This document shows, piece by piece, positions 780-56,809 of a DNA stretch of 64,000 nucleotides. Origin of the DNA: Treponema sp. (GTDB lineage: Bacteria > Spirochaetota > Spirochaetia > Treponematales > Treponemataceae). Location of the stretch: the NCBI GenBank assembly GCA_024690865.1, contig JAILON010000106.1, positions 1-64,000 of the forward strand. The letters are read 5' to 3'. The notes under the pieces were generated by a model. It worked only from the letters and a program-made list of their open reading frames with translations, searched no databases and was not told where the DNA came from. The position numbers and the translations under genes are program-made. Position 1 is the first letter of the stretch. Each line of letters starts with the position of its first letter.

Positions 780-971
780 GGCGCTCCCTGCCTGTCGGCA
801 GGCCGGGCTTTCCGGGGTTCCGCTATCGCTCCATTCTCGCTTCGCGAGAACGGCTACGCCGCCCCTACAATCCCTAGCGCATTAGGGAAGCGCAGGCCGG
901 AACTTTAAACCGGTCGCATATTGTGACCGGTTCGAGAGAGAGAAGTAAAGGAAAACAGGAGTACATTAATT

Positions 972-1910
972 ATGGACAACGAAATAACGGCAAAGGCGAT
1001 AGAATCCAATATTCTCACGATACGAAACCAGCAGGTGATGATTGACCGAGATTTGGCGGAACTGTACGGAGTAGAGACAAAAGCTTTAAATCAGGCGGTA
1101 AAACGGAATATTGAACGCTTCCCCGACGACTTTATGTTTCAGCTAACAAAAGAAGAAGCAGGGGATTGGAAGTCACAGATTATGAACTCCAATGATGATA
1201 TTTCAAGGTCACAAATTGTGACCTTGAAAAAAGATGAAGATAGACGTGGACAAAACATAAAATATCTTCCCTACGCCTTTACCGAACAGGGCGTTGCCAT
1301 GCTTTCGTCTGTTCTCAAAAGCCAGACCGCGGTGGAAGTGAACATCCAGATTATGCGGGCGTTTGTAGCAATGCGCCACTTCTTTCAGAACAATGCGCAG
1401 GTGTTTGCAGAAATCAATACGATAAAGAAGCAGCTCTTGGACACAAATGTTCACCAGAAGGAAACAGATAAAAAGGTTGAAGAATTATTTGAGTTAATTG
1501 ACAAATACAACGTAAAAGAAACCCAGGGCATTTTCTTTCAGGGGCAGATTTTTGATGCTTACGCAAAGTTCGAGAGCTTTATTGCACAGGCTAAGCAAGA
1601 GATAATTCTGATAGACAACTATGTTGATATGAGCATTCTGGAACGCCTTGCGAAGAAAAAGAAAACTGTGACCGTCATCATTTATACCGACCCCAAGACA
1701 AAGCTGACCGCGCAGGATATTCAGAAATTCAATGCTCAGTATCCGACGCTCACCTTGAAACACACGGCAAAGATGCACGACCGATTTATGATAATCGACC
1801 AGAAGATATTGTACCATATCGGCGCATCACTCAAGGATTTGGGTAAAAAATGTTTTGCGTTTGAAACACTGGATGCTTCACTGATAGGACATCTTTTGAA
1901 GAATGCATAA
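972..1910 (+). CDS. ORF6N domain DNA-binding protein with PLD-like C-terminal region
   Basis: N-term NILTIRNQQVMIDRDLAELYGVETKALNQAVKRN is typical ORF6N; C-term MHDRFMIID resembles a PLD-like motif. Confidence 0.85.
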   Translation: MDNEITAKAIESNILTIRNQQVMIDRDLAELYGVETKALNQAVKRNIERFPDDFMFQLTKEEAGDWKSQIMNSNDDISRSQIVTLKKDEDRRGQNIKYLPYAFTEQGVAMLSSVLKSQTAVEVNIQIMRAFVAMRHFFQNNAQVFAEINTIKKQLLDTNVHQKETDKKVEELFELIDKYNVKETQGIFFQGQIFDAYAKFESFIAQAKQEIILIDNYVDMSILERLAKKKKTVTVIIYTDPKTKLTAQDIQKFNAQYPTLTLKHTAKMHDRFMIIDQKILYHIGASLKDLGKKCFAFETLDASLIGHLLKNA

Positions 1911-1914
1911 GGGA

Positions 1915-1962
1915 ATGAAAATGGAAGAGTGGAAAGAATATAAGTTGGGAGGGACAAAATGA
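1915..1962 (+). other. Mini-ORF MKMEEWKEYKLGGTK, relic copy of the hsdS 5' end, stop overlapping the DUF1016 start (ATGA)
   Basis: 1913-1946 identical to 2973-3006 (34/34); reading frame ends TGA 1960-1962 over ATG 1959-1961. Confidence 0.8.
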
Positions 1963-2978
1963 AAGATGAGCTTGAAAAATCAGAGATGACATTTGTAAAT
2001 GACATTAAGAAAATAATTCAAGACGGACGAAAAGCCGCATACAGTGCCGTGTCCTCTGTTATGATTCAAACTTACTGGAACATCGGAAAGCGCATAGTTG
2101 AGCAAGAACAGAATGGTAAAACCCGTGCAGAATATGGAACTCACCTGATTGATATGCTTGCAAAAGAATTGAAACTGGATTTTGGAGATGGATTTTCTGC
2201 CCGTTATTTGAGACAGTTCAGAAAGTTTTATACTATTTTTCCTGATTCGGAGATTTGGAAATCGCGATTTCCAAATTTGACATGGACACACTACCTTATG
2301 GTTTTGAGAGTCGAAGACACGACTGCTTGCAGATGGTATATAGAAACAGCATCCAAAGAAATGTTGAGCACCCGCACATTGGACAGGAATATCAGCACGC
2401 AGTATTTTGAAAGACATTTTGCCAATCCTGCAATAACAGACAATTCAAAAAAAGAAGTATCTGCACCTGAGATACTAAAGAATCCTTTTATGGCTGAATT
2501 TTTAGGATTTAAAACAGGGGAAGATTTTTCTGAGTCTGATCTGGAAAATTCCATCATTTCGCACCTAAAGGATTTTCTGCTTGAAATGGGCAGAGGATTT
2601 GCGTTTGTTGCAAGACAACAGCATATTCACACAGATGCAGAAGATTATTACATTGACCCTGTTTTTTACAATATTGTATTAAAATGCTACGTACTCATTG
2701 ATCTAAAAAAAGGAAAAATCAGACATCAAGATGTAGGACAAATGGACATGTATGTCCGTATGTACGACGAACTTAAACGGACGGAAGGGGACAATCCGAC
2801 AATAGGCCTGGTTTTATGTTCCGAAACAGACGAAGCAATCGCTAAATATTCCGTTCTAAATAATAATGACCAGTTATATGCTGCTAAACTTATGACTTGT
2901 ATGCCGACAGAAGAACAGCTCAAGTCCGAAATTGAGCATCAAAAAGAGATTTATAGGTTGCAGCATGGCGGAGAATGA
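1959..2978 (+). CDS. DUF1016 / YhcG-type PD-(D/E)XK nuclease domain protein
   Basis: TYWNIGKRIVEQEQNG..., FLLEMGRGFAFVARQQHI..., YVLIDLKKGKIRHQDVGQMDMYV. Confidence 0.9.
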   Translation: MKDELEKSEMTFVNDIKKIIQDGRKAAYSAVSSVMIQTYWNIGKRIVEQEQNGKTRAEYGTHLIDMLAKELKLDFGDGFSARYLRQFRKFYTIFPDSEIWKSRFPNLTWTHYLMVLRVEDTTACRWYIETASKEMLSTRTLDRNISTQYFERHFANPAITDNSKKEVSAPEILKNPFMAEFLGFKTGEDFSESDLENSIISHLKDFLLEMGRGFAFVARQQHIHTDAEDYYIDPVFYNIVLKCYVLIDLKKGKIRHQDVGQMDMYVRMYDELKRTEGDNPTIGLVLCSETDEAIAKYSVLNNNDQLYAAKLMTCMPTEEQLKSEIEHQKEIYRLQHGGE

Positions 2979-4174
2979 AAATGGAAGAGTGGAAAGAATA
3001 TAAGTTAGGTGATATTTGCCTAAAAATAGGAAGTGGTGCAACTCCTTCTGGAGGAAAAGAAGCATATAAAGGTGGAGGCTACAATCTTATTCGTAGCCAG
3101 AATGTTCTTGATTTTTCTTTTTCTTCTGAAGGACTTGTTCAAATAAATGAAGAACAAGCAAGGAAATTAGACAATGTGACACTTCAAAAAAATGACGTCC
3201 TATTGAACATCACAGGAGATTCAGTTGCAAGAGCCTGTATCATTCCCAACAACTTATTTCCTGCTAGAGTAAACCAGCATGTTGCGATACTCAGAGCAAA
3301 CAGTGATATTTTAGATTATCATTATCTTCTTTATTTCCTACAAGTCAAAAAGCCTCAACTATTGGCATTAGCATCGGGTGGGGCCACAAGAAATGCATTA
3401 ACAAAACAAATGCTTGAGAATCTTCCTATAGCACTTCCCCCTCTCCCCACCCAGCAAAAAATCGCCGCCATCCTCTCATCCCTCGACGACAAAATCGAAC
3501 TGAACAACAAAATAAACACCAACCTCGAACAGCAAGCTGGGGCGATTTTCAAAAACTGGTTTGTAGACTTCGAACCATTCGGCGGCAAAATGCCGGAAGG
3601 GTGGAAAGAAAAACCTTTATATGATTATGCAGATTTTATAAATGGAACTTCTTTTAAGGAAGATGAATATGACACAAAAGGGGTTCCTATTATAAAAATC
3701 GCAGAATTAAAAAACGGAATAACGGACGCAACTCAATATTTTAATGGGGAAAAAGATCCAAAATACGATGTAAAAAATGGGGACATACTCTTTTCATGGT
3801 CAGGAAATCCAGAAACATCAATAGATATTTTCATTTGGTCATTAGGAGATGGAATCTTAAATCAACATACATTTAACTTAAAAAGTAATACAGACAGAAA
3901 ATGGTTTACTTATTGTTTATTAAAATATTTCAAACCGGAATTCTGTCATCGAGCAAGCTGCAAACAAACAACAGGTCTCGGACATGTTACGGCAAATGAT
4001 TTGAAGCAGATTACATTCAACTCTGGAGAAAAAGAAGAATCAAATTTTGAAGCATTAATTACGCCTATTATGAATCAGATTTTCAATAATAAACTTGAAA
4101 ATCAAAAATTGGTAAATATACGAGATTCTTTATTACCAAAGTTGATGAATGGAGAAATTGAGTTTATAAAATAG
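2975..4174 (+). CDS. hsdS: Type I restriction-modification specificity subunit (HsdS)
   Basis: Two TRDs; LPLPPLPTQQKIAAILSSLDDKIELNNKIN central repeat; ATGA overlap with upstream gene. Confidence 0.93.
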   Translation: MKMEEWKEYKLGDICLKIGSGATPSGGKEAYKGGGYNLIRSQNVLDFSFSSEGLVQINEEQARKLDNVTLQKNDVLLNITGDSVARACIIPNNLFPARVNQHVAILRANSDILDYHYLLYFLQVKKPQLLALASGGATRNALTKQMLENLPIALPPLPTQQKIAAILSSLDDKIELNNKINTNLEQQAGAIFKNWFVDFEPFGGKMPEGWKEKPLYDYADFINGTSFKEDEYDTKGVPIIKIAELKNGITDATQYFNGEKDPKYDVKNGDILFSWSGNPETSIDIFIWSLGDGILNQHTFNLKSNTDRKWFTYCLLKYFKPEFCHRASCKQTTGLGHVTANDLKQITFNSGEKEESNFEALITPIMNQIFNNKLENQKLVNIRDSLLPKLMNGEIEFIK

Positions 4175-4189
4175 TGAGGGATATATTAT

Positions 4190-4699
4190 ATGTTTAAAAC
4201 AAATAAAAAAGAACAGTTCAGCATAGCTTATGTATATGCGTTAGCTGCACAATTAGGATTTAACCATTCAAAACCAGACGTAGATGATGAAAGTGTCGAT
4301 ATTGAATTTATTGGAAACTATCCTAAATCAGATCCAAATATAAAGATGTGGAATCCTCGCTTGGAAGTGCAACTAAAATGTACCAAAAATGGTCCTCAAG
4401 CTGATAATTATTTACATTTTTCTTTGCCAGTTAAGAATTATAATGATTTGAGAGAAGTAAGAAGAAGTAGTCCAGCATATTTAATTGTTTTACACGTCCC
4501 AGACAACGAGGATGATTGGATTATTGAAAACTCTGCAGATATTACATTGAAATATAATGCTTATTGGTTTTCACTAAAAAATAGTCCCCCTACAAGTAAC
4601 ACAACAACTGTAACTGTGAAAATACCAATATCAAATCGCCTAACCAAGGATTCTTTTAAGAATCTCATGGATAATTCTAGTAAGGGGATTGCCTTATGA
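4190..4699 (+). CDS. DUF4365-like protein
   Basis: DVDDESVDIEFIG...LEVQLKCT...YLIVLHVPDNEDDWI...AYWFSLK pattern. Confidence 0.75.
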   Translation: MFKTNKKEQFSIAYVYALAAQLGFNHSKPDVDDESVDIEFIGNYPKSDPNIKMWNPRLEVQLKCTKNGPQADNYLHFSLPVKNYNDLREVRRSSPAYLIVLHVPDNEDDWIIENSADITLKYNAYWFSLKNSPPTSNTTTVTVKIPISNRLTKDSFKNLMDNSSKGIAL

Positions 4700-5838
4700 G
4701 TTTACGCTTTGACAGGTTTTGTCTGAATTATACATTTTTATCATTTTCTAGATTTTTACTTAAACTTGATTGGGAAGAGGCAAATAATTTAAATGAGTAT
4801 TATAATGTTTGGCATAGCCCGATTATTGATGGAAAGCAAGAAGAGTTAGTTGTTCCTCTAACTAACGAAGTATTTAGACTAGAACGAGATTTAAATAATA
4901 TCATAAAAACACTGATGAGTTTCTATGATAAAAAAGAATATCAGATATTAGATGATTTTGAGAATTCCGTAAAGGATCAAGTAAAATTTCGAGTTAAGAG
5001 TGAAATGACAGAAGATGGCTATATTCCTCTCGTTGAAGGGGTTAGACTTCTTGAAAATACAAAAGAAATGCTAATAGCCTCTTTTCTTTCTGTTAATACT
5101 AAAAAAAAGAATTATACTGGGCCACATCCCGAAAATGTCAATGAAGCAATTAGCAATATTAAAATGGGACAAACTGAGGAAGGAAGTTTCATAATCAATA
5201 TTTATTTACCGAATGATTATTATGAAAACGGACAGCCTTCTCTTCTTGAAGAGGAATCTGATTCATTTACAAGAAAAGCTTTAACAATTATGGAACAAGC
5301 ATCAACCGAGTTAATTACTAAAGCTGAAACATTTGAAGAACAAAGTAATGATCTGTCAGTTTTTGATGATTCATATTTACTTGGGGTTAGTTCAAATTTT
5401 TGTTCAGCAATTTCAGAAATTAGTTCTAACGGTAAAAACGATGTTGAGATTGAAATCATATTAAATAATAAAATTGATGACAAAGAGGATATTCGGAGAA
5501 TAGAAATCAAAAAAGAAATAATTCCAATTATCGACACTGTAAAGGAATATTATAAACAAGATTTAACCACAGAAAACTTTGTTCTTATTGGGCATGTTAC
5601 AAAATTACATCAAGAAGTTGATGATTCGGAAGGTGATATTACTTTAACTTGTGAAATTGATGGAAAGTTAAAAAAGGTAAAATTAGAATTAAATGAGAAT
5701 TTCTATACTATTGCTCAAGAAGCTCATAGGAATAAAAGTTATCTTAGATGTGTTGGTACATTAAAAATTAATGGTAGAGTTACTACATTAACTGATATCA
5801 CTGATGTTTTAATAATTTCTGAAGATGAGATAGAATAA
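4696..5838 (+). CDS. Protein of unknown function, translationally coupled to the DUF4365 gene
   Basis: ATGA overlap 4696-4699; long AT-rich ORF; C-term FVLIGHVTKLHQEVDDSEGDITLTCEIDGKLKKVKLELNENFYTIAQEAH looks like a beta/OB-like domain. Confidence 0.8.
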   Translation: MSLRFDRFCLNYTFLSFSRFLLKLDWEEANNLNEYYNVWHSPIIDGKQEELVVPLTNEVFRLERDLNNIIKTLMSFYDKKEYQILDDFENSVKDQVKFRVKSEMTEDGYIPLVEGVRLLENTKEMLIASFLSVNTKKKNYTGPHPENVNEAISNIKMGQTEEGSFIINIYLPNDYYENGQPSLLEEESDSFTRKALTIMEQASTELITKAETFEEQSNDLSVFDDSYLLGVSSNFCSAISEISSNGKNDVEIEIILNNKIDDKEDIRRIEIKKEIIPIIDTVKEYYKQDLTTENFVLIGHVTKLHQEVDDSEGDITLTCEIDGKLKKVKLELNENFYTIAQEAHRNKSYLRCVGTLKINGRVTTLTDITDVLIISEDEIE

Positions 5839-5934
5839 TCAATAAGCCAGTGTTGCGGGCGGCGCCTGAGCCCGCAGAAGGGGTAGCGGAAAACGCCGCA
5901 GGCAGTTGTAGGGAGGGGATGGCCCCTCCCCACC

Positions 5935-7017
5935 CTACATTACCTCATACTTCCGAATCTGTTCTGAATAGTCCGCCCAGTTGAGATATTTTTCTTTTTG
6001 AAGGCGGCCTATCAGGATAGATGGCAGGATATTCTGGCTTTCTGAGAAAGAATTGATTGAATGCAGGGTAAAATCATTTGCCTTAATAAAGCTCTGATAT
6101 GCTGCTTTGTCTATCAAAGTATTCTGGGCAAAAAGGTCAGCCTTTGTTTCTTTTGCATTTTCTACTGACTCAAAATCTATGAATTTCTGTTTTGAGTCAC
6201 CATTGATAAAATGAGCGATTTCATGGAATAAGGTAAACCAGAAAATATCCGCGCGTTTTTGACGGAACGTGAGGCTTATGATTGTTTTCCCTTCCTGATT
6301 TGTTTTTATAAAGCCTTGTACAGGTGCACCCTTAAAAGACGGTGCAATTACAAATGCAATTCCGCATGAAGAAAAGCTTTCCTGAAGCTTCGGGATGAAT
6401 TCTTCCTGTGGCAATACAGACAATGCCTTTATTTGGGGGCAAATTTTCAAGAGTCTGGCTGTCTGGTCTTCATAAGAAAGATTTTCTGTTTCAATTTTTT
6501 CTGCCAGGGATTCACATATCCTTTGCCATGCGAATAAAATACAAGGCTCACAATTTTGTGTTGTCTGCGCTCTGAATGCTCCAGAGGAAACAAGAGACGG
6601 TATGCACGTCAAGTTGCTTACATTAAGATATTTTCGTAATTCAAGAATATTCTGTTCAGTCTGCTTGATTTCAGGAACAAAAGATTTCTCCACGATGAAA
6701 CAGAATGCTTCTTTCATTGATTTGAAAATATTGATTTCGTCCTGTGAAATTGAATGAAGCTCATCAAAGTCAAAAATTTCTTTGTCATATTGATTCTGCA
6801 AATTCATCCAAAAATCCGCATCTATATTCAATGCATACTCGAGTTTTTTTGCAAAATTTACGGAAATATTTCTCTCGCCGCTAAGAATTGTGCTTATGTG
6901 CTTCGGGGTTACACCTGTGCGCAAAGCAAGTTCCAGCTGAGACATGTTTCTTTCTTCGAGGACCTCTTTTAATGTTTCGCCGGGATGAATAATCATTTCA
7001 CGAGACAAGCCACTCAT
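5935..7017 (-). CDS. HigA-type antitoxin: XRE HTH plus ImmA/IrrE-like metallopeptidase
   Basis: IIHPGETLKEVLEERNMSQLELALRTGVTPKHISTILSGERNIS plus FTLFHEIAHFINGD; GGAGG ahead of ATG 7017. Confidence 0.9.
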   Translation of the reverse strand: MSGLSREMIIHPGETLKEVLEERNMSQLELALRTGVTPKHISTILSGERNISVNFAKKLEYALNIDADFWMNLQNQYDKEIFDFDELHSISQDEINIFKSMKEAFCFIVEKSFVPEIKQTEQNILELRKYLNVSNLTCIPSLVSSGAFRAQTTQNCEPCILFAWQRICESLAEKIETENLSYEDQTARLLKICPQIKALSVLPQEEFIPKLQESFSSCGIAFVIAPSFKGAPVQGFIKTNQEGKTIISLTFRQKRADIFWFTLFHEIAHFINGDSKQKFIDFESVENAKETKADLFAQNTLIDKAAYQSFIKANDFTLHSINSFSESQNILPSILIGRLQKEKYLNWADYSEQIRKYEVM

Positions 7018-7366
7018 TTTTTCCTCCATGATAATCCACGATTCCAATAATCATCGCCTTTTCACAGATTCTTAGAGCTTCGGACGATAAATCTGGTGGA
7101 ACTGGCTGAATTATGAGCCGTGTATGTGCATCTAAATCCACACCATAGTAACCGGACAAATTGCCCTTAAGGCTGTGTGGCTTCCCAATGTTGAAGTTCA
7201 AATACTTTTGAAATGTCGCTGCGGCTTTTATCTGGCTGATTCTTTTTTTCGCAGTTTTCGTAAGCATTGAACCTATTTTCTTCTGAAGTAAATTTCGGGA
7301 GTTGGCGATATCGCATAAATCCGAGAAGTATTCCTGTATTAATTCATTTGCGTATTGCACTTCCAT
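6998..7366 (-). CDS. HigB/RelE-like toxin
   Basis: About 122 aa ORF directly upstream of and overlapping the antitoxin; PHSLKGNLSGYYGVDLDAHTRLIIQP. Confidence 0.8.
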   Translation of the reverse strand: MEVQYANELIQEYFSDLCDIANSRNLLQKKIGSMLTKTAKKRISQIKAAATFQKYLNFNIGKPHSLKGNLSGYYGVDLDAHTRLIIQPVPPDLSSEALRICEKAMIIGIVDYHGGKNEWLVS

Positions 7367-7436
7367 TAAAATTACCTATTAGGTAATTTTAATGGAAGTG
7401 CAGATGATTGTCAAGAACAAATTACCTGTTTGGTAA
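7357..7436. promoter_or_regulatory. Putative toxin-antitoxin operator: 45-bp palindrome plus second TTACC-N5-GGTAA site
   Basis: 22-bp perfect arms 7357-7378/7380-7401; TTACC-N5-GGTAA at 7372-7386 and 7422-7436, 50 bp apart. Confidence 0.75.
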
Positions 7437-7595
7437 CAAAATTCTTTTCGATATACCGAACCAAATCGCCAAAAATCGATTTTAGTTCGTTTCAACCGTA
7501 CAAGTCATGCTCTGCGAAATGGGTTTTGTTATAAATCAAGTGCAAAATCCCGTAAATCGTGATAAACTGTATGTAATTGCATGCGAGGAAAGGAT

Positions 7596-10500
7596 ATGTC
7601 ATCTTACAACGAAAGTGCCTATGAGAATGCCCTGATAGAACTGTTCGTAAACATGGGCTGGCAGCACGTGTACGGGCCGGACGTTGAGCGCGACTTGCAT
7701 TCCCCGCTGTACGATTCCGTCCTGGAAGAGTCGCTCCGCCGCCTGAATCCGGATGCCCCGGCACAGGCCCTTTCCGAAGCGCTGCTCAAGCTCCACCACT
7801 TTGAGAACGCCGAGCTGGTGAAAAAGAACGCGCTCTTCATGGACTACCTGCAGAACGGGATTGAGGTCAGCTACAGCGCGGACGGCAAGGCAAAATCCGC
7901 CATCATCTACATTGCCGATTATGAGAACGCGGGGAAAGGCGGCGACAGGAACTCCTACATCATCGCCAACCAGTGGACCTTCATGGAAAACTCCACCAAA
8001 CGGCCGGACATCCTGCTGTTCCTGAACGGGCTCCCGGTCTGCCTCTTTGAGCTGAAGTCCCCGAGCCGGGAGCAGACGGACGCGAGCGAGGCGTACACGC
8101 AGATCCGCAACTACATGCAGGAAATCCCCAGCATGTTCATCTACAACTGCATCTGCGTCATGTCCGACCAGCTGGTGAGCAAGGCGGGAACCATCACGAG
8201 CGGCGAGGACCGCTTCATGGAATGGAAATTGCAACGAAGTTCCCCGCGCAAGACGAAAGACGGCACCGCCGAATCCAAGACCCTCGCGGACTTCACGACT
8301 TTCTTTGAGGGCATCTTCCAGAAAGAACGGCTCCTGGACATCATCAGGAACTTCATCTGCTTCAACAATGACGGCGTGAGCAGCCATAAGATTCTTGCGG
8401 GCTACCACCAGTATTTTGCCGTCCGCAAGGCCGTCGAGCGCACCAAGCTCGCCGTAAGCGGTGACGGCAAAATCGGCGTGTTCTGGCATACGCAGGGCTC
8501 GGGCAAGTCCCTTTCCATGGTGTTCTACGCCCACCTCCTGCAGCAGGCGCTTGACAGTCCGACCATCGTCGTCATCACGGACCGCAACGATTTGGACAAC
8601 CAGCTCTTCGGCCAGTTCAGCAACTGCAAGGACTTCCTGCGGCAGGAAGCGGTTCAAGCGGAAAGCCGGGTGCACCTCAAGACGCTCCTTGAGGGCCGCA
8701 AGGCGAACGGCATCATCTTTACGACCATGCAGAAGTTCGAGGATGAGCCCGGAAAGGCAGAGAAGGCGTTGAGCGACAGGCGGAACATCATCGTCATGGC
8801 GGACGAGGCGCACCGCGGCCAGTACGGACTGAGCGAGAAAATCAAAACATCCCGCGACGGGAACGGCAACCTGATTGCCCGCCGCACGGTCGGCACGGCG
8901 CGGATTATCCGCGACTCCCTTCCCAACGCAAGCTACATCGGTTTTACCGGTACGCCGATTTCACGCGAGGACCGCAGCACCATCGAGGTCTTCGGCGACT
9001 ACATCGACGTTTACGATATGACGCAGGCCGTCCTGGACGGCGCGACCCGCCCGGTGTACTACGAGAGCCGGGTCATCAAACTGAAGCTCGACGATGCGGT
9101 CCTTGCCCGGATTGATGCCGAATACGACCTGCTCGCGCAGAACGCGGACGAGGAAGTCATCGAAAAGAGCAAGCGCGAGCTTGGCAAGATGGAGGAAATC
9201 CTCGGGGCCGAGAAAACAATCAATTCCCTTGTGGACGACATCCTGAAGCACTACGAGGAAGAGAGGCAGTACCTGTACACCGGCAAGGCGATGATCGTCG
9301 CGTACAGCCGCGCCATCGCAATGAAGATTTTTAACCGCATCCTTGAGCTGCGGCCCCGGTGGGCGGGTACGGCCACGACGGTTGCAATCAACAACAGGCA
9401 GATTACTGTTCCCGGCGACGATGCCCGCGTTGCCGTCGTCATGACGGAAAGCAACAAGGACCCGGAGGAATGGCGGGCCATCATCGGGAACAAGACCCAC
9501 AGGCAGGAGCTGGCGGCACGGTTCAAGGACAACGGCAGCCCGCTCAAAATCGCGATCGTCGTCGACATGTGGCTCACCGGTTTTGACGTGCCGTCCCTCG
9601 CGACGATGTACGTGTACAAGCCGATGGAAAGCTATAACCTCATGCAGGCGATTGCCCGCGTGAACCGGGTTTTCAAGGACAAGGAAGGCGGCCTTGTCGT
9701 GGATTACGTCGGCATTGCCAGCGCGCTCAAGCAGGCCATGAACGACTACACGGTGCGCGACCGCGAGAACTACGGCGAGATGGATGTCGCAAAACGAGCC
9801 TTCCCCAAGTTCCAGGAGAAGCTTGAGGTCTGCCGGAACCTCTTCTTTGGCTGTGACTATTCGGCTTTTTACGATGGAACTGCCTTGCAGCGCGGCATGA
9901 CAATCTCCGGGGCAGTAAACTTCATCATGGCCCCCGATAAGGAAGCGCAGAAGCAGGCCTTCATAAAGGAAGCCCTCATGCTCAGGCAGTCGCTCTCGCT
10001 CTGCTCGTCGATGGTCAAGGAGCAGATGCGGATGGAAGCGGCATTCTTCGAGTCCGTCCGCGTCCTTGTCATGCGCCTGATGTACAATGCGGGCGGCAAG
10101 AAATTCTCGCTCAAGGAAATCAATGACAGGATAAACGAGCTCCTCAAGCAGTCTGTAAAATCCGAGGGCGTGATAAACCTCTTCAGCGACGTGGGCGAGG
10201 AGTTCAATCTCTTTGACCCCAAGTTCCTTGCCGACGTTGCCGGGATGAAGAACAAGAACCTTGCCGTGGAAATGCTCAGGAAGCTCATCGACGAGCAGGT
10301 AAAGGTGTACAAGCGGACGAACCTCGTGAAATCAGAAAAGTTCAGCGTGCTGGTCCAGCAGGCCCTGAACCGCTACCTGAACGGCATGCTCACGAACGAG
10401 GAGGTCATTCAGGAAATGCTCCGCCTTGCAAAGGAGATGGCGGCCGCCAGCGCGGAAGGCAACAAGCTGGGCCTGAGCGATGAGGAGCTTGCCTTCTATG

Positions 10501-10850
10501 ATGCGCTCACGAAACCAGACGCGGTAAAGGACTTTTATTCCAACGAGGAGCTTGTCGCCCTGACCAGGGAACTGACGGAAACCCTCCGCAGGAACAAGAC
10601 GATTGACTGGCAGAAGAAGGAATCTGCCCGTGCCAGGATGCGCATGATTGTCAAGAAGCTTCTGAAGAAGTACAAATACCCGCCGGAAGGGCAGGAAGAC
10701 GCGCTCAAGACCGTCATCAGCCAGTGCGAGATGTGGACCGATGCGGCGGACGGCTTCATGGAACTTCCGCCGCAAGATGCAGGCTATGTGATTGACGGGG
10801 AGGCCGGCCTGCGGTACGTCGCGCAGGAAAGCCCGGCATACGGCAGCTAG
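7596..10850 (+). CDS. hsdR: Type I restriction endonuclease subunit R (HsdR)
   Basis: FELKSP nuclease motif, HTQGSGKSLSM Walker A, DEAHRGQYG, GFTGTPI. Confidence 0.96.
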   Translation: MSSYNESAYENALIELFVNMGWQHVYGPDVERDLHSPLYDSVLEESLRRLNPDAPAQALSEALLKLHHFENAELVKKNALFMDYLQNGIEVSYSADGKAKSAIIYIADYENAGKGGDRNSYIIANQWTFMENSTKRPDILLFLNGLPVCLFELKSPSREQTDASEAYTQIRNYMQEIPSMFIYNCICVMSDQLVSKAGTITSGEDRFMEWKLQRSSPRKTKDGTAESKTLADFTTFFEGIFQKERLLDIIRNFICFNNDGVSSHKILAGYHQYFAVRKAVERTKLAVSGDGKIGVFWHTQGSGKSLSMVFYAHLLQQALDSPTIVVITDRNDLDNQLFGQFSNCKDFLRQEAVQAESRVHLKTLLEGRKANGIIFTTMQKFEDEPGKAEKALSDRRNIIVMADEAHRGQYGLSEKIKTSRDGNGNLIARRTVGTARIIRDSLPNASYIGFTGTPISREDRSTIEVFGDYIDVYDMTQAVLDGATRPVYYESRVIKLKLDDAVLARIDAEYDLLAQNADEEVIEKSKRELGKMEEILGAEKTINSLVDDILKHYEEERQYLYTGKAMIVAYSRAIAMKIFNRILELRPRWAGTATTVAINNRQITVPGDDARVAVVMTESNKDPEEWRAIIGNKTHRQELAARFKDNGSPLKIAIVVDMWLTGFDVPSLATMYVYKPMESYNLMQAIARVNRVFKDKEGGLVVDYVGIASALKQAMNDYTVRDRENYGEMDVAKRAFPKFQEKLEVCRNLFFGCDYSAFYDGTALQRGMTISGAVNFIMAPDKEAQKQAFIKEALMLRQSLSLCSSMVKEQMRMEAAFFESVRVLVMRLMYNAGGKKFSLKEINDRINELLKQSVKSEGVINLFSDVGEEFNLFDPKFLADVAGMKNKNLAVEMLRKLIDEQVKVYKRTNLVKSEKFSVLVQQALNRYLNGMLTNEEVIQEMLRLAKEMAAASAEGNKLGLSDEELAFYDALTKPDAVKDFYSNEELVALTRELTETLRRNKTIDWQKKESARARMRMIVKKLLKKYKYPPEGQEDALKTVISQCEMWTDAADGFMELPPQDAGYVIDGEAGLRYVAQESPAYGS

Positions 10851-10930
10851 GCCGCACCGGGACGGCAAAGGGCTGAATCCGCAAGCTGCGGTCAAGGCCG
10901 AAAGATACGGGAATACAGGAGGAGAATCAC

Positions 10931-11779
10931 ATGGGCGACTGCAACAAAAAGACGAAGCTCTACCATTACACTGACTTCAACGCGATGCGGGGAATCATCA
11001 CCAACGGCGAGATATGGCTCTGGAACCTGCGGAGGATGAACGACAGTCAGGAGATGAAGTACTTCATCAAGGAGCTGAAAATCGCCGTGAGGAAGCGGCT
11101 TTCACGCGCGGAGTCCGACTGCATGGACTCGCTTTTCGCGGAGAACCTCAAGGACTTCGACTCGCTTTCAAGCTATGCGGCGTGCTTCAGCGAATACGCC
11201 GACGATGCGGCGCAATGGGCACGGTACGCCAAGAACGGCATGGGTGTATGCATCGCCTTCAACCGCGGGCTCCTGGCCCAAATCGGAGATGCCGGGCATG
11301 CCCCCCTCTGCCAGGTAAACTATTCCAGCAGCTGCGATGACATGGAAATCGTCCAGGAGCTCTGCCAGCTGATACAGGAATGTGCGGGCGCGGGTCCCCT
11401 CGCGAAAGAGAGCCCGCTGTCGGAGAAAACCAGGGACTTTTTCAACAGGCTGGTGACAAGCTCGCCCCTTTTCAAGCACCCCTCGTTCATCAGCGAGAAG
11501 GAATACCGCCTTGTCTCGCTGCCCTACAACGTGAGCGAATACCTCGGCGAGCCCCGCTTCTTCGTCGAGGAAACGAACATCAAGAAGTATTACGTGCTGA
11601 ACCTGCGCACGGTATGCGAGTTGCTCGGCCACCCCTACAGCGAAATCTTCGAGGAAATCTGCATCGGCCCACAGGCCCGCGTCACCCGGGAAGTCCTCGC
11701 CGACTACTTCGCCGCCACGGGCATCCCAGAACTGTGCGAAAAAATCAAAATCTCGGAATGCCCGCTCAGGAGGTTCTGA
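10931..11779 (+). CDS. DUF2971 domain protein
   Basis: LYHYTDFNAMRGIITNGEIWLWNLRRMNDSQEMKYF; RBS aggagg. Confidence 0.8.
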   Translation: MGDCNKKTKLYHYTDFNAMRGIITNGEIWLWNLRRMNDSQEMKYFIKELKIAVRKRLSRAESDCMDSLFAENLKDFDSLSSYAACFSEYADDAAQWARYAKNGMGVCIAFNRGLLAQIGDAGHAPLCQVNYSSSCDDMEIVQELCQLIQECAGAGPLAKESPLSEKTRDFFNRLVTSSPLFKHPSFISEKEYRLVSLPYNVSEYLGEPRFFVEETNIKKYYVLNLRTVCELLGHPYSEIFEEICIGPQARVTREVLADYFAATGIPELCEKIKISECPLRRF

Positions 11780-11780
11780 T

Positions 11781-12278
11781 TTGATGATTCTGATAAGTAT
11801 CATCGCCATTTTTCTCGCGGCAGGCTATTTCCTTGCCCCAATTGTATTTACGAAATTCGTCATCTTCGGAGGCGCGAAGATGTCCCGTGCCGATCTTGAG
11901 GACATGAAATCCGCTCTGGAGGCCAAGAGCCACATCTGCGGGTGCATGGAGAAGGTCGCTGCGGAGTTTAAAAGCGTCCAGATGAAGCCTTCTTCGGCTT
12001 TCATTCTCTGCAAGGCTTCTGGAAAGATCGAAGAATTCATGGATATCTGTGACAAGCTTTCTGCTGCGATCAACCATACTGCCGGGATAGTTCATAAAAG
12101 CAATACGTGGTGGCTTAAGAGCTTTCGTAAGGCTGGAAGGGACCATGTGCGTTTTATCGACTCAATCCTTCACGATGACATCGTGACATATGGGAAATTC
12201 CATAAGCTTTACGAAGAGATTGGCCTTGCGGAAGTCTCAAAGGTATCTGAGATTTTGGAGAGCAAGGGGATCGTTTGA
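11781..12278 (+). CDS. Hypothetical protein with N-terminal transmembrane segment
   Basis: MMILISIIAIFLAAGYFLAPIVF start; immediately follows DUF2971 gene. Confidence 0.65.
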   Translation: MMILISIIAIFLAAGYFLAPIVFTKFVIFGGAKMSRADLEDMKSALEAKSHICGCMEKVAAEFKSVQMKPSSAFILCKASGKIEEFMDICDKLSAAINHTAGIVHKSNTWWLKSFRKAGRDHVRFIDSILHDDIVTYGKFHKLYEEIGLAEVSKVSEILESKGIV

Positions 12279-36187: not shown

Positions 36188-36973
36188 TTAATAATCGTCG
36201 TCGTCGTCGTCATCATCTTCTTCGTCGTCATCCCAGAACTCAATCCAGTCATTCACAAGTTCTCTGTATTCATCATCATCATCTATGCTGTCATCCTCAA
36301 ACCACTCGACATCATCATCGTCAAAGAATTTCTCGAGTGCCCATCTACTGGGATGAAACTTTTTCTTGATTACATCCTCTGCATCGCCATAACCTTTATT
36401 TTCTTCGTTACCATTAGAGCTGGGGGTGGGCTGGTTCTGAGTGATATTCTCTGCATTTTCGGCGGCACGCAGTTTTTCTTTCAGTGAGTTGATTTCATTA
36501 TTCAGGACGATTATTTTGTTCCGCATAGCATCCAGTGAATATTCTGGCAACTTTTTCCCACACGACTTATATTCCCGGGACAAAAAGGAGCGTATCTTTC
36601 CCTGTACCTGCGTAAACTTGAGCTGCTCTATGGGGGTACATTCCTTCCCTTTAAGTTTGATTTTAATTATACTGTCCAGAAAATCACAGCAATCCCTGAA
36701 CTCCGACATGGCGAAATTCGGGACATATTGCGCCGATTCATTGAGCGTCTGAAAACAGGATTCAATATCTGAGAAGCGTGTTATATCATAATATTCGCCC
36801 TTGTTCATGGAATTCGCAAGGCTGTTCACAAGCTGCTTGAAGGTGTCAACCTTGCGGCATATCTCATCCTGCTTCTCGATGATGCGCTTGACATCTTCCA
36901 TTTCGCGGTTTGCCTTATAAAGCTCATACTGCTTGGCAGCAAGATGTTTTCTCAGTTCATCACTGTCTGACAT
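36188..36973 (-). CDS. Unknown protein with coiled coil and acidic C-terminal module
   Basis: C-term YGDAEDVIKKKFHPSRWALEKFFDDDDVEWFEDDSIDDDDEYRELVNDWIEFWDDD... Confidence 0.75.
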   Translation of the reverse strand: MSDSDELRKHLAAKQYELYKANREMEDVKRIIEKQDEICRKVDTFKQLVNSLANSMNKGEYYDITRFSDIESCFQTLNESAQYVPNFAMSEFRDCCDFLDSIIKIKLKGKECTPIEQLKFTQVQGKIRSFLSREYKSCGKKLPEYSLDAMRNKIIVLNNEINSLKEKLRAAENAENITQNQPTPSSNGNEENKGYGDAEDVIKKKFHPSRWALEKFFDDDDVEWFEDDSIDDDDEYRELVNDWIEFWDDDEEDDDDDDDDY

Positions 36974-37568
36974 ATTCTATCATTCCTCCCTGTAGATTTG
37001 CGGACGGAAGCTCAAGCCGTGCGTTCGATGCCGCCACCTGAAGATTGAACATCAGTTCTTTGTAGTCCCTATTGCACTTATCCAGGCTCGTCCTCAGACC
37101 TCCCAGACGGCTTATGCCTGCATCATACTCCTTACCAGTGCAGGAGCTCGCCTTACACGAGTATTCCGTCTGCTCGATGAGGGTCAAGAGCTTGTCCCGC
37201 AAGGGAACAAAATAGTCCTGTACGTTCTTCTGGAGCATTTCCAGATAATCAAATTTTCTGTTGTATGCCCGCTCAGCGGTTTCCAGCAGTTGCTTCCTGA
37301 GCTCATTTTCCTGCGATTTCAGCCTTTCCATCGCCTCAATCCGAGCCATTTCCTCCTCATGGGTATCTGCCATCCGTTGCCGCATGAGAGCTTTCTGGGC
37401 GGAAATTCTTTCCATCTCCGCTTCATGCTCACGCCGGGACCACAAATCACTGGCACGCAAGTCAGCGGAGCTGGAATCATACTTTGCGATTTCCGATATT
37501 ACCCCTCCTACAGCAGTCACAAAACCAGTAATCGCAACAAGAGAGTCATCAGTGTACCTATCTGCCAT
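36960..37568 (-). CDS. Unknown coiled-coil protein
   Basis: REHEAEMERISAQKALMRQRMADTHEEEMARIEAMERLKSQENELRKQLLE; 14-bp overlap with next gene. Confidence 0.7.
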   Translation of the reverse strand: MADRYTDDSLVAITGFVTAVGGVISEIAKYDSSSADLRASDLWSRREHEAEMERISAQKALMRQRMADTHEEEMARIEAMERLKSQENELRKQLLETAERAYNRKFDYLEMLQKNVQDYFVPLRDKLLTLIEQTEYSCKASSCTGKEYDAGISRLGGLRTSLDKCNRDYKELMFNLQVAASNARLELPSANLQGGMIEYVRQ

Positions 37569-37652
37569 ATAGAGCACCTCCTTTTTTACTTTTTGATTTT
37601 GGGGCATCCAAAAACACAGTCTCCAGATGCTCCAGTTGTTTTCTATTTCTGC

Positions 37653-38042
37653 CTATTCCCAATCCTCATCTTCCTCTTCATCGTCATCATCTTCGTCCTC
37701 ATCATCTGGGTCAGCATATTCCACTTCGTCGTCATCATCCCAATAGGAGTTCCAGTCCTTCAAGAGCTTGCGGTATTTCTTCTTGCTGTCAATGCAGTCA
37801 TCATTGTCCCATTTGACATCACCATCCTCGAAGAATTCATCGAGCTCTTCTTCTGCGGGGTCATATTCGTACCGTATGACATCTTCCGCTTCTCCATACG
37901 TGTCGTCATCGTAGTCGCCCCGATTAAGCCGCCGCTCATATTCCTTACGGGCAATCGCAATGCCCTTCTTCAATCCTTCATAATATCCGTTCCACCATTG
38001 GTCTCTGCTCATTTTTTTCTCCTTGCGATTTACGCATCGCAT
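37653..38042 (-). CDS. Unknown small protein with the same acidic module
   Basis: YGEAEDVIRYEYDPAEEELDEFFEDGDVKWDNDDCIDSKKKYRKLLKDWNSYWDDDD. Confidence 0.72.
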   Translation of the reverse strand: MRCVNRKEKKMSRDQWWNGYYEGLKKGIAIARKEYERRLNRGDYDDDTYGEAEDVIRYEYDPAEEELDEFFEDGDVKWDNDDCIDSKKKYRKLLKDWNSYWDDDDEVEYADPDDEDEDDDDEEEDEDWE

Positions 38043-45738: not shown

Positions 45739-46680
45739 CTAGAAGTCGTCCGACTCGCCGCCCTGCACGCTCTCCAGATAGTTGTCCATATAGCCCTTGT
45801 CCAGGAACATCGTGAGGACCAGCTGGTCCAGGTAGGGCACCTGGCAGTCGTACTCCCCGAAGGCCTCCTTGTATTCGGCAAGGAGCTTGTCCGGCAGCAC
45901 CATCCAGGCGATGGACAGGCCCTTGCAGAGGAGGTTCGAGAAGGAGTTCATGTAGATGACCTTGCCCTGCGTGTCCGCGTTCTTGAAGGTGGTGTCTATG
46001 CTGATGTTCATGGTGTCGTCGTTCTCGATGATGTAGCGGTAGTCCGCCTCAGAAGCCCAGTCCAGTATGCCCTGCCGCCGTTCCGCCGGGTCGTCCAGCG
46101 TGAACTCAGGAGGTTCCACGGGAGTGACGAATAGGATTGTCGTACCGGAAGTAAGCAGGGAATCCAGCGAGACGCCCAGGTCATCGACGGCGACCTTCTT
46201 GACCCCGAAGCCCGCGTTCTTGAACAGACGCTCCGTGGTGGTGCTCACGTCCTCGGGGATTGCGACGACCGGAGAGATGGAACGGCGAACCTGCTCCGCA
46301 TAGGTCAGGAGGCTGCCCGACTTCTTCTCGCCGGAAGGATGGCGCAGGGTATGCAGCTGCATCAGCCTGAACATCAGCGCGCCCATGCCCGGACCCACGA
46401 CGATGTTGTCCACCGGGGCCTCCACCTTGTGGAAGCGGAACATGAAGGCCGACAGGGCCTTGCGGAAGGCCGGATCGCCAAAGCGGTCCCCCCTCTGGTT
46501 CAGGTCCACCGTCTCGTCGTTCAGCACGCTGTTGTAGCAGCGGGCCAGAAATTTCTCAAAATACTCTGCGTTGGGCACTATGACAGGACGGCTGCTTCCA
46601 CTGCCCTCCTCACCGTCGATGAAGGTAGGCACGCTGGTCAGCGACCCCGACTGATTAAAAAACTGGTCTACACTGTTCAT
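45739..46680 (-). CDS. Aminotransferase class I/II fold protein (MocR-like, no HTH, canonical Lys position altered)
   Basis: RFGDPAFRKALSAFMFR...NIVVGPGMGALMFRLMQLH...VIYMNSFSNLLCKGLSIAWMVLP. Confidence 0.75.
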   Translation of the reverse strand: MNSVDQFFNQSGSLTSVPTFIDGEEGSGSSRPVIVPNAEYFEKFLARCYNSVLNDETVDLNQRGDRFGDPAFRKALSAFMFRFHKVEAPVDNIVVGPGMGALMFRLMQLHTLRHPSGEKKSGSLLTYAEQVRRSISPVVAIPEDVSTTTERLFKNAGFGVKKVAVDDLGVSLDSLLTSGTTILFVTPVEPPEFTLDDPAERRQGILDWASEADYRYIIENDDTMNISIDTTFKNADTQGKVIYMNSFSNLLCKGLSIAWMVLPDKLLAEYKEAFGEYDCQVPYLDQLVLTMFLDKGYMDNYLESVQGGESDDF

Positions 46681-46840: not shown

Positions 46841-46931
46841 ACGCCCCAACGGGCCCGGGCAACGCCCCAACAGGCCCGGGCGACGCCCCAACGGGCCCGG
46901 GCGACGCCCCAACGGGCCCGGGCAACGCCCC
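46841..46931. repeat. GC-rich tandem repeat, 21-bp unit, 4 copies plus partial
   Basis: ACGCCCCAACGGGCCCGGGCR at 46841, 46862, 46883, 46904 and start of a fifth at 46925. Confidence 0.92.
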
Positions 46932-47503
46932 TATTCGGCGACCTCCTCACCTCCACCAGCTTCATCATCTTCACCATACTCGCCGTCCCCGCCATCCTCT
47001 TCGTCCGGCGGCACGGCAAAACCGAAGAGCTTGCCAAAAAGCCAGAAGCCGAACTCCAGCAGCACGTGGCGGACTATGAAGACGGCGGCAATCCCGAGGA
47101 AAACCCCGTCCAGCGACCGGAGGAAGAAGAACCCCGCCGCCGCCCCCAGGGGCAGGAAAACCGGCCCGCTCCTGAACTGGTGGACGCCCAGCGCCAGCTG
47201 CATCAGGAACACCAGCAGGCATATCCCCGTCAGGATGCGGAGGCCCCAACTCCAGTGCAGGAAGAACGCCCCTACGCCCAGAAGCGAAAGCAGGGCAAAA
47301 AAAACGAAGCCGATGCGGACAAGCACCAGGAGCATCAGGCCAAGGGACATATCCACGCCCCCCTCGTCCGGCTCCTCCAGCGGCCTGCGGCTGTTCCTGT
47401 CTATCTTGCATCCACATTCTGGGCAAACCAGGTCATCCAGATCCTCAATGCTCTTTATGGCAAAGTCAAATTCCTTACGGCAGTTGGGGCAGTATCTAAT
47501 CAT
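46931..47503 (-). CDS. Zinc-ribbon membrane protein
   Basis: MIRYCPNCRKEFDF...DDLVCPECGCKI followed by TM segments. Confidence 0.78.
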   Translation of the reverse strand: MIRYCPNCRKEFDFAIKSIEDLDDLVCPECGCKIDRNSRRPLEEPDEGGVDMSLGLMLLVLVRIGFVFFALLSLLGVGAFFLHWSWGLRILTGICLLVFLMQLALGVHQFRSGPVFLPLGAAAGFFFLRSLDGVFLGIAAVFIVRHVLLEFGFWLFGKLFGFAVPPDEEDGGDGEYGEDDEAGGGEEVAE

Positions 47504-47626: not shown

Positions 47627-47764
47627 GAGCCAGTTGCAAAAGTTGGTTACTTTTGCACTGGCTCACGAGGGCCTGTGCAACGCACGACGCACATTCGTGC
47701 AATTGTGGCCCTCGCAGTGTGATTTGGACCAGTTTCAAAAGTCCGTCTGGGTCTTTTGAAACTG
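47627..47764 (+). ncRNA. Structured leader: three consecutive stem-loops upstream of the lysis cassette
   Basis: Stems 47627-47643/47649-47664; 47666-47673/47707-47714 with inner GCACGA/TCGTGC; 47730-47741/47753-47764. Confidence 0.45.
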
Positions 47765-47790
47765 CCACAACAGGTTTGCAGGAGGTAAAT

Positions 47791-48228
47791 ATGCAGACGG
47801 AAGAACTTTTGACGGGGGTCTACGGGCAGCTGCACGAGCTGCTCGGCGACCACAAGGCTTTCAAGCGGGAGACGCTGGACAGGCTGTCCACGCTTGAAAA
47901 GGAAGTAAAGGATGCTCCGGGAGCCAGGACGGCGCGCCTGTGCGCAATCATTTCGGCCCTTTCGGGTGCCGCGTCGCTGTTGGGCAGCCTGGGGCTCAAG
48001 CTGGCGGCCTCGTTCGGACCGCTGTGCAGAGGTGCGCAGGCCCTGACGGAACCAACGGCCGCGACAATCGTACGGACGGCAGCCCGGCTTGCACAGCTTG
48101 TGGCGACAGCGGTGCCGGCGGCCACAGCGGTGCCGGCGGCCACGGTAGTGCCGGCGGCCACGGTAGTGCCGGTGACAGAGGCACTGGCCTGGCTTGCAGC
48201 CGGACCGCTGTGCGGAGGTGCCGCATGA
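47791..48228 (+). CDS. Putative holin/XhlA-like protein (coiled coil then hydrophobic region, VPAATA repeats)
   Basis: MQTEELLTGVYGQLHELLGDHKAFKRETLDRLSTLEKEVKD then hydrophobic; RBS GGAGG. Confidence 0.6.
   Translation: MQTEELLTGVYGQLHELLGDHKAFKRETLDRLSTLEKEVKDAPGARTARLCAIISALSGAASLLGSLGLKLAASFGPLCRGAQALTEPTAATIVRTAARLAQLVATAVPAATAVPAATVVPAATVVPVTEALAWLAAGPLCGGAA
48106..48177. repeat. In-frame 18-bp tandem repeat, 4 copies
   Basis: ACAGCGGTGCCGGCGGCC x2, ACGGTAGTGCCGGCGGCC, ACGGTAGTGCCGGTGACA. Confidence 0.9.
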
Positions 48229-48701
48229 ACACGGGACCGCTCGCATCCATCGCACACATCATGAAGGACCGGGGACGGCCCCCCGCGGAAATCTACGGAA
48301 CCCTGCTGGGCCTCTTCCTTGGAACGCCCTACGTCTGGGGCGGCTCCAGCATACTGGGCACGGACTGCTCGGGATGCGTCTCGACCTGCCTTTCGCATGC
48401 GCTGGGACATCCACTCAGGACCACGGCAGACGGACTGTACCGGGAGCACTTCACGAGGAACGCCGGCAGGGTGGAAGAACTGGAAGGGAAGATCGGAGCC
48501 GCCTTCTTCCTGGACAAGACCGGCAGGGCCGTTCACGTCGCGGGCTACATGGGCACGGGCCTGTTCGCCAACGCATCCAGCATAGAGCGGGACAGGCGGA
48601 CCATGCCCCGCCGCCTGGACGAGCTTTTGTCCATGTACAGTGACTTCGTTCCACGGCTCCGCACGCTGGAAGGAAAAACCGGCAGGGAGGCTGACCGATG
48701 A
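48225..48701 (+). CDS. NlpC/P60-like cysteine peptidase (putative endolysin)
   Basis: GTPYVWGGSSILGTDCSGCVSTCLS...GRAVHVAGYMG; ATGA overlap with upstream gene. Confidence 0.85.
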   Translation: MNTGPLASIAHIMKDRGRPPAEIYGTLLGLFLGTPYVWGGSSILGTDCSGCVSTCLSHALGHPLRTTADGLYREHFTRNAGRVEELEGKIGAAFFLDKTGRAVHVAGYMGTGLFANASSIERDRRTMPRRLDELLSMYSDFVPRLRTLEGKTGREADR

Positions 48702-49339
48702 AAGGAAGCGTATACGAGGGAGGGATTTCCTCCTGCCTGGGCTACCTTGCCAAGCGGGCGGTCCTGCTGGCGGCGAAGCTCCTGGGCTTCAAAGGCTTCT
48801 GCCTGTTCCTTGCCACCGCGCTCCTGGGACTTGGCAGGATTGGAGAGGACGTCTGGCTGACCCTGGCCATAACGCTCGTGTGCAGCGCGAGCGGAATCCG
48901 CGTGCTGGATTCCTTCAAGGAAGGGACGGACGCGCTGGATGCAAAAAACGCAATCGCGGCCCGGCTGGGAGGCCCCGCCGCCAAAGAGGAGGTATCCTAT
49001 GAAACATCTTGGAAAGGCAATCCTATTGCCGCTGCTGGCTGGACTGCTCCTGCACTGCCCTGCCCCGGCGGAAGCCGCGGCCCGGAAGAAGGCCCCGGTA
49101 CGTCCGGAACAACTGGCACGCGGCCCGGCACCTGGTTCGGCACGCCCGGAACGCAACAAGGCTCAGGCGGCACGCGGCCGGGAGGCGTCGGCGGCCAGTC
49201 CGGCACAAGCGGAGCAGCAGAACGCGCCGCATCCCGCAGGGGAGCAAGAGCCAGTTCCGCCGCCGCAAAGGGACAGGGAAAAAGAGGCCGGCAGCGGATC
49301 CGCGCCATCCTTGAAGAGGCCGTCCAACAGGACGGCTGA
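48698..49339 (+). CDS. Putative two-TM holin-like protein with Gly/Ser/Thr-rich tail
   Basis: CLGYLAKRAVLLAAKLLGFKGFCLFLATALLGLGRIGEDVWLTLAITLVCSASGI; ATGA overlap. Confidence 0.6.
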   Translation: MKGSVYEGGISSCLGYLAKRAVLLAAKLLGFKGFCLFLATALLGLGRIGEDVWLTLAITLVCSASGIRVLDSFKEGTDALDAKNAIAARLGGPAAKEEVSYETSWKGNPIAAAGWTAPALPCPGGSRGPEEGPGTSGTTGTRPGTWFGTPGTQQGSGGTRPGGVGGQSGTSGAAERAASRRGARASSAAAKGQGKRGRQRIRAILEEAVQQDG

Positions 49340-49553
49340 CGGCCTGGACCTTGACGCGCTGGAAGAGGAGCTGGGGAGGATTCTGGACGAAAGCGTCCAG
49401 GAAGCCCTTGCGAAACAGCGCACGTCGTTTGAACGCGACTACTCCCGCCTCTGGGACTCTCGGAGCTTCTGGAGGCGCGCCGCAATCGGAGAAGGCGGAG
49501 CCATTGTGGCCTGCCTCCTTGGAGGAATCTTCATCTGGAACCTGGCGAAATAG
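48999..49553 (+). CDS. Putative spanin-like protein: signal sequence, Pro/Ala/Gln-rich region, C-terminal TM; overlaps previous gene by 341 bp
   Basis: RBS GAGGAGGT; MKHLGKAILLPLLAGLLLHCPAPAEA; C-term GGAIVACLLGGIFIWNLAK. Confidence 0.6.
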   Translation: MKHLGKAILLPLLAGLLLHCPAPAEAAARKKAPVRPEQLARGPAPGSARPERNKAQAARGREASAASPAQAEQQNAPHPAGEQEPVPPPQRDREKEAGSGSAPSLKRPSNRTADGLDLDALEEELGRILDESVQEALAKQRTSFERDYSRLWDSRSFWRRAAIGEGGAIVACLLGGIFIWNLAK

Positions 49554-49581
49554 CCGGGCCATGTAAAAAACACACAGTGCA

Positions 49582-49616
49582 GGGCGGGCCCGTCTGTTGG
49601 CGGGTCCGCCTTTTTT
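49582..49616 (+). terminator. Rho-independent terminator after the lysis cassette
   Basis: GGGCGGGCCCG-loop-CGGGTCCGCC-TTTTTT. Confidence 0.85.
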
Positions 49617-56170: not shown

Positions 56171-56809
56171 ATGAAAAAATGCATCGCGGCCTGTGCCGCA
56201 CTCGCCGTGCTCCTGCTCGCGGCGGCCGCCGGCAGCAGGCGGGACCGGGCGGACGAACTGCGCTTCATACGGAAGAACCAGATACGCTACAAGAACTTCA
56301 ACGGGACACCCAGGAACACCGTCATATTCTACGGCGGCTTCCACGGCACGGGAAACGATTTCGTCTTCCGGCAGGTGGACCCGGAGCACGAGGTCGAAGT
56401 CCAGGCGACCAGCGACGAGGAGTTCTTCATTTCCAAACCCGTCAGGTTCGGCACCCGCTACGTGCTGGAATACTGGTACTGGACCGACAGCGACGAAAAC
56501 TACGAGGGCTTTTCCGCCGCCCGCAACTACCATGAAAACAGCAGCCCCCTGGTCATAGACATCCCCTACGAGCCCGGCTTCTACTACTTCGGCTACTACG
56601 ACGGGCGCCCCTCCATAACGACGGGCGAACTGGTGGAATGGAACAAGAACAGCTCAATCGAAATGAAGCCCGCCGCCCTCAAGAAGGCCATCAGCTGTTA
56701 CCGGGGAACCGAATGGGAGCCGCTGCTTAGGGAAGAATACAGGAAGGCAAAGGAAGAGGCAAAGGAATACAAGGCGCAGCGCAGGGCCAGCAGGAAGGCC
56801 AAGGACTGA
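56171..56809 (+). CDS. Secreted protein of unknown function
   Basis: Signal sequence MKKCIAACAALAVLLLAAAAGS. Confidence 0.7.
   Translation: MKKCIAACAALAVLLLAAAAGSRRDRADELRFIRKNQIRYKNFNGTPRNTVIFYGGFHGTGNDFVFRQVDPEHEVEVQATSDEEFFISKPVRFGTRYVLEYWYWTDSDENYEGFSAARNYHENSSPLVIDIPYEPGFYYFGYYDGRPSITTGELVEWNKNSSIEMKPAALKKAISCYRGTEWEPLLREEYRKAKEEAKEYKAQRRASRKAKD

Follow-up and report, generated by a model that had tools for sequence, protein, structure and literature searches.

An orphan phage-type lysis cassette in Treponema, possibly domesticated for controlled lysis or release

We analysed a 64,000-nucleotide stretch of a Treponema MAG (91% complete, 7.65% contamination), referred to here as the window, in which four co-directional plus-strand genes, A-B-C-D, lie tightly packed between positions 47791 and 49553. 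Gene A (47791-48228, 145 amino acids) is an ORF whose hydropathy profile and sequence indicate an N-terminal coiled coil followed by a transmembrane (TM) segment, and gene B (48225-48701, 158 aa) encodes an endolysin-like NlpC/P60 cysteine peptidase. Gene C (48698-49339, 213 aa) is predicted from hydropathy and from alignment of its tail to encode a holin-like protein with two TM segments and a long tail, and gene D (48999-49553, 184 aa) a protein with a signal peptide, a low-complexity linker, a conserved helix and a C-terminal TM segment, assigned by hydropathy and alignments. The A/B and B/C junctions are both ATGA overlaps, and C and D overlap out of frame over 341 nt (48999-49339, plus strand). 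All four ORFs are present within the span, and the tightly coupled four-gene cassette described in the initial annotation is real. So is the strong terminator that it placed after D: an intrinsic plus-strand terminator at 49581-49616 consists of a 14-pair stem (49581-49612), ten pairs of which are G-C, followed by a T run. Because shuffled sequence yields a mean of 2.3 terminator sites in this region, the weight of the terminator lies in its strength and not in its mere presence. A promoter scan found none, and there is no tRNA within the window as an insertion site.

In the leader of A, a hairpin-rich stretch of about 150 bp has been inserted (47627-47775). It has CAACAG on both flanks, is absent from the leaders of relatives and looks like a small dispersed repeat. 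The same genome has a second copy on another contig (L184, 4815-4930, contig C118 of G000), which matches at 90% identity over 117 bp and is flanked by genes of a polysaccharide-type locus. The leader hairpin could also pair with the first part of A, a possibility that we set aside since it lies in this repeat insertion that relatives do not have.

Throughout, TM and signal-peptide assignments were made by hydropathy and inspection, and genes in related loci were called with a simple ORF script. Gene A has one clear TM segment (residues 50-68) and a weaker hydrophobic stretch. Its 145 aa in the window compare with 76-93 aa in those same-genus orphan relatives that have A and 71-80 aa in others, and it is some 50-70 aa longer because of an in-frame tandem repeat (18 bp x 3.9, 48102-48172) in its 3′ half that adds VPAATA-like repeats. 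The proposed resemblance to XhlA agrees with this layout of coiled coil and TM segment, but A matched no Pfam family at E values up to 1. For B, the initial assignment to the NlpC/P60 cysteine peptidases was borne out by a match to PF00877 of 38.2 bits (cut-off 23) with the catalytic Cys and His intact in a pattern of DCSG, HVAG and a downstream Asn. The DCSG and HV/I motifs and the Asn are kept in the orphan and prophage copies of B examined, the B start in L175 having been placed too late to show the Cys. No signal peptide or TM stretch was found in B by hydropathy and inspection. AlphaFold models of B and D were of low confidence (mean pLDDT 53.8 and 51.9).

The two TM segments of C (21-39 and 52-70) fit the two-TM holin-like protein originally described; C is however longer than that description, its frame running 341 nt into D and overlapping the first 113 codons of D out of frame. 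Synonymous recoding of the overlapped part of D preserves an open C frame in only 8% of cases. The same C/D overlap occurs in four related loci (L066, L146, L147 and L148), where C is 186-206 aa in length and carries a tail of the same type, ending in a conserved GRxRIRxxL motif that is found in five type-I species; both frames and the tail are kept in all five species of the window subtype. Family searches, Pfam included, returned no holin family for C, which we regard as holin-like by layout and ancestry. Related tails are present in other orphan subtypes. By subtype, the tail is present along with the C/D overlap and absent from several copies in which D has been lost (L155-L157, L159). It is kept in one locus where no D was found (L152), which suggests that the tail is useful in its own right. 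In one orphan locus (L161, 5810-7774) C occurs twice in pieces: an N-terminal copy is followed, at a distance of about 1.5 kb, by a partial copy that overlaps D, an arrangement suggestive of an insertion or duplication.

The initial annotation compared D to a spanin-type component, a comparison that we do not uphold. D does have a C-terminal TM segment (161-179), as a unimolecular spanin would, together with an N-terminal signal-type stretch, but by inspection this signal is of the signal-peptidase-I type, with no Cys after a lipobox. Several relatives of D likewise have no Cys in the signal region by inspection, and no spanin-family match was returned for either D or C in family searches.

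No structural phage genes had been noted near the cassette, and our scans agree. No head, tail, portal or integrase gene appears in the PHROG listing for 56 window proteins, which shows 25 of 55 families, or among 10 nearby genes scanned directly, the single phage 'tail' match in the window scans being the NlpC/P60 domain of B itself. Elsewhere, however, the gene order A-B-C-D was found inside prophage structural clusters, both in the genus of the window and in termite-gut Treponema. In five genomes of the termite-gut type (G121, G101, G133, G092, G115), A-B-C lies in a structural cluster with a head-tail adaptor (PHROG_442, E 7.9e-16) and a tail-terminator-like gene (E 0.0016), and a D-like gene is found wherever the contig continues, as is a D5-type primase. 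Two of these genomes (G121 and G101) contain the cluster with its lysis module in two to three copies each (L165-L171), near-identical in gene order and with the D5-type primase at the end; no obvious capsid gene was seen in the stretches read. Within the window's genus, a homologue of the cluster's 506-aa structural gene occurs in 15 genomes, and in the prophage loci that we read B, C and a D-like gene come after it, A mostly standing between it and B.

Relatives of A were detected by HMM in both orphan and prophage loci. Models built without the same-genus prophage copies matched these at E values of 1e-28 to 4e-33 for B, 3e-6 to 2e-11 for C and 3e-3 to 5e-8 for A, and this profile similarity shows A to C to be of phage ancestry. 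Prophage D has the same layout of signal, helix and C-terminal TM segment, although the D sequence model does not link it. The prophage lysis modules (L165-L176, L190, L192-L206) thus share with the cassette the order A-B-C-D and homologous A, B and C genes, but differ from it in adjoining the 506-aa structural gene, in having a mostly short C and in showing no C/D overlap: where a D-like gene is present the overlap occurs in none of 18 prophage loci, C and D being separated by 2-200 nt. The tail of C is, on these alignments, a mark of the orphan lineage, and it may add control. We consider it fairly probable that the four genes derive from a Treponema phage family, in which they formed the lysis module, and now serve as a functional chromosomal cassette.

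B was searched across 148 related genomes, about 88 of which belong to the same genus as the window. Among the stronger matches, orphan homologues of B, lying away from the structural marker, were present in 17 of these roughly 88 genomes including that of the window, and three genomes (G004, G021, G063) carry both the orphan and the prophage kind at separate places. Scans of viral contigs and of genome contigs with B returned mostly unrelated NlpC/P60 proteins (Bacillota and others), with the exception of L066. The maximum-likelihood tree computed for B places the 22 orphan copies apart from the 25 prophage copies with support of 100/99, and groups the window copy with L066, L147, L146 and L148 at the same support. 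Because the tree has no true outgroup and the program warns on the long separating branches, a single capture of the module by the genus is likely rather than proven. Prophage surroundings of the orthologous cassette, raised at the outset as an objection to an isolated module, are present for the sister group but not for the closest orthologues. Gene neighbours are moreover kept in close relatives. An aminotransferase-like gene to the left of the cassette (45739-46680, minus strand; a weak PF00155 match below cut-off) has an orthologue adjoining the cassette in L066 and a fragment in L147, and the gene between it and A, encoding a zinc-ribbon membrane protein (46931-47503, minus strand; weak zinc-ribbon matches below cut-off), has a similar gene in L066 (3851-4261). 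L066 therefore has both left-hand neighbours and L147 the aminotransferase side, and the right-hand gene of L066 (6443-7081) has its counterpart in the window at 56171-56806. A tandem repeat of 21 bp x 4.3 (46841-46931) adjoins the zinc-ribbon gene on its downstream side.

Selection on the cassette was assessed by Nei-Gojobori dN/dS, comparing the window copy with L066, L146, L147 and L148 and excluding the C/D overlap, where each frame constrains the other. Ratios were well below 1 in all four genes, at about 0.1-0.5 in the window subtype: 0.18-0.33 for A (aa 1-78), 0.25-0.48 for B, 0.18-0.37 for C (aa 1-100) and 0.11-0.20 for D (aa 114-184). Judged by these ratios, the window-subtype cassette is maintained by purifying selection and is not decaying. 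This bears on the suggestion that the cassette is a remnant of a prophage or phage satellite without present function, which its clear homology to prophage lysis modules might have favoured. Purifying selection, the separation of the B group from all prophage copies, and catalytic residues and reading frames (the two overlapping ones included) that are intact in five species all argue against a remnant; with the phage-free copies forming a group of their own, this reading is already contradicted by selection and tree, and we rate it very improbable.

Another reading is a lysis module serving a gene transfer agent, an option put forward initially, or a tail-like particle, with the structural genes elsewhere in the genome. 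The window genome does contain a 46-kb contig, C1 (G000; L182, L183), with terminase, portal, protease, capsid, tape measure and tail genes, and the portal, capsid, terminase and tail cluster speaks for this reading. C1 however looks like an ordinary prophage with a weak Rz-like gene of its own (PHROG_89, E 0.0026), holding the lone portal and capsid on a separate contig that may itself be foreign given the contamination of the MAG, and the usual structural partner of the cassette, the 506-aa gene, is absent from the window genome. We found no positive evidence for a gene transfer agent and give this explanation very little credence.

The surroundings of other orphan copies bear on how the cassette may be used. 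Among orphan loci outside the window subtype, a homologue of a regulator of about 204 aa lies nearby in 14 of 17 and an HU-type gene, whose protein carries PF14848 and PF14734/DUF4469 domains, in 12 of 17. A NusG-like gene is near the cassette in three orphan loci (L155, L156, L161), and by inspection some orphan loci sit among sugar-nucleotide or glycosyltransferase-like genes. The window contains no LuxR-like regulator, HU gene or NusG-like gene and no obvious cargo gene. The window genome does encode a longer homologue of the regulator, with a LuxR-type HTH (PF00196, E 1.2e-8), which adjoins polysaccharide-export-like genes (an ABC ATPase, and others by inspection), as well as 15 DUF4469 matches. 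DUF4469 proteins are very numerous in some other genomes (25 in G136, 20 in G078), most of them not adjoining a lysis cassette. Literature searches on Treponema holins, on DUF4469/HU proteins and on Treponema LoaP-type factors turned up nothing bearing on the cassette. In Bacteroides, gene clusters of an amidase, a small protein and an HU-type gene occur at capsule loci. Several orphan Treponema copies are similar in that a peptidoglycan hydrolase has an HU/DUF4469-type gene as its neighbour, frequently within polysaccharide loci, but the hydrolases are unrelated and the window copy has no adjoining HU gene.

Such loci leave some room for a non-lytic envelope tool, in which C would leak small amounts of B to loosen peptidoglycan locally, for instance in surface-polysaccharide assembly or export, with A and D as membrane scaffolds. 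The position of several orphan copies in polysaccharide-type loci, in the company of HU-DUF4469 genes and NusG-like antiterminators, would suit this role, as would the loss of A or D in some subtypes, and the conserved cytoplasmic tail gained by C could restrain it. The window copy, however, is not in a polysaccharide locus, and the cassette of Serratia marcescens, at first taken to be non-lytic, has since proved to be lytic (PMC10847048); we regard both the leakage of B and the scaffold role as unlikely. Equally tentative is a more elaborate proposal, that the module was captured once and turned into a device for programmed lysis whose regulation is tied to the control of surface polysaccharide through the LuxR-like, HU-DUF4469 and NusG-like genes, its holin-like protein having gained a conserved cytoplasmic tail encoded over the signal and linker of D.

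A use in defence by suicide, with early lysis upon phage infection by means of a captured phage weapon, would accord with the phage origin of the cassette, with the related prophages that circulate in the genus and with the type I restriction system at 1-12 kb of the window. The restriction genes are nevertheless 36 kb off and there is no sensor gene within the cassette or next to it, and we judge this explanation improbable.

With moderate confidence we favour the view that a cassette of phage origin has been domesticated to bring about lysis or release under control and works in the manner of type 10 secretion systems (T10SS); a release-type system, one of the options initially raised, is the best reading of the cassette, its function being predicted from the genes. 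Treponema that carry the cassette probably use it for the controlled lysis or opening of their own cells. Since B has no signal peptide it would need a membrane hole, staying in the cytoplasm until the inner membrane opens. The two-TM, holin-like C would open that membrane with or without help from A, which may assist or regulate hole formation, and B would then cut the peptidoglycan. Because D combines a signal peptide lacking a lipobox with a C-terminal TM segment, it is predicted to be anchored in the inner membrane with its helix in the periplasm, where it may help the last step through the envelope and fulfil a spanin's role although it is not itself a spanin. As outcome, a subset of cells would be lysed or opened in a controlled way and their contents released. 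Membrane opening, the order of action, lysis and a cargo are inferred, as is any polysaccharide link of the window copy.

T10SS are clusters of holin, endolysin and spanin genes outside phages, by which a subset of cells is lysed under a dedicated regulator and cargo is released (PMC10847048, PMC10101115). Like those of S. marcescens (ChiWXYZ) and Yersinia entomophaga, the Treponema cassette is a small chromosomal operon outside phages, with phage-derived holin-type and hydrolase genes. Its hydrolase has no export signal of its own, and a regulator adjoins many orphan copies. Reading frames also overlap in the Yersinia cassette, there between holA and pepB (PMC10101115), whereas in Treponema the overlap joins the holin-like gene with D. 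The Treponema cassette differs further in its NlpC/P60 hydrolase, its extra coiled-coil TM gene A and its spirochaete host, in having no spanin or Rz/Rz1 pair, and in the window copy being without an adjoining regulator or known cargo. As D has neither a lipobox nor a spanin-family match, and C is holin-like by layout and ancestry, we do not assign the cassette to the T10SS. The PBSX-type XhlA/XhlB/XlyA cassette of Bacillus similarly combines a coiled-coil TM protein, a holin and a hydrolase in one operon; the Treponema cassette differs from it in having no Pfam match for A or C, a fourth gene D and an NlpC/P60 hydrolase.

To our knowledge, a few Gammaproteobacteria are the only bacteria in which the reuse of phage lysis cassettes has been elucidated. 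A cassette that appears to be under selection across a spirochaete genus in which its prophage relatives are still present would allow the taming of a killing module to be traced stepwise, from the loss of structural genes to the tail newly acquired by the holin in an overlapping frame and the apparent recruitment of regulators, and it offers a candidate release route for Treponema. Two further regions of the window may be recorded: the type I restriction-modification genes (1-12000) are accompanied by ORF6N and YhcG/DUF1016-type genes, and three consecutive minus-strand genes of 261, 202 and 119 aa, with no PHROG match, lie at 36188-38012.
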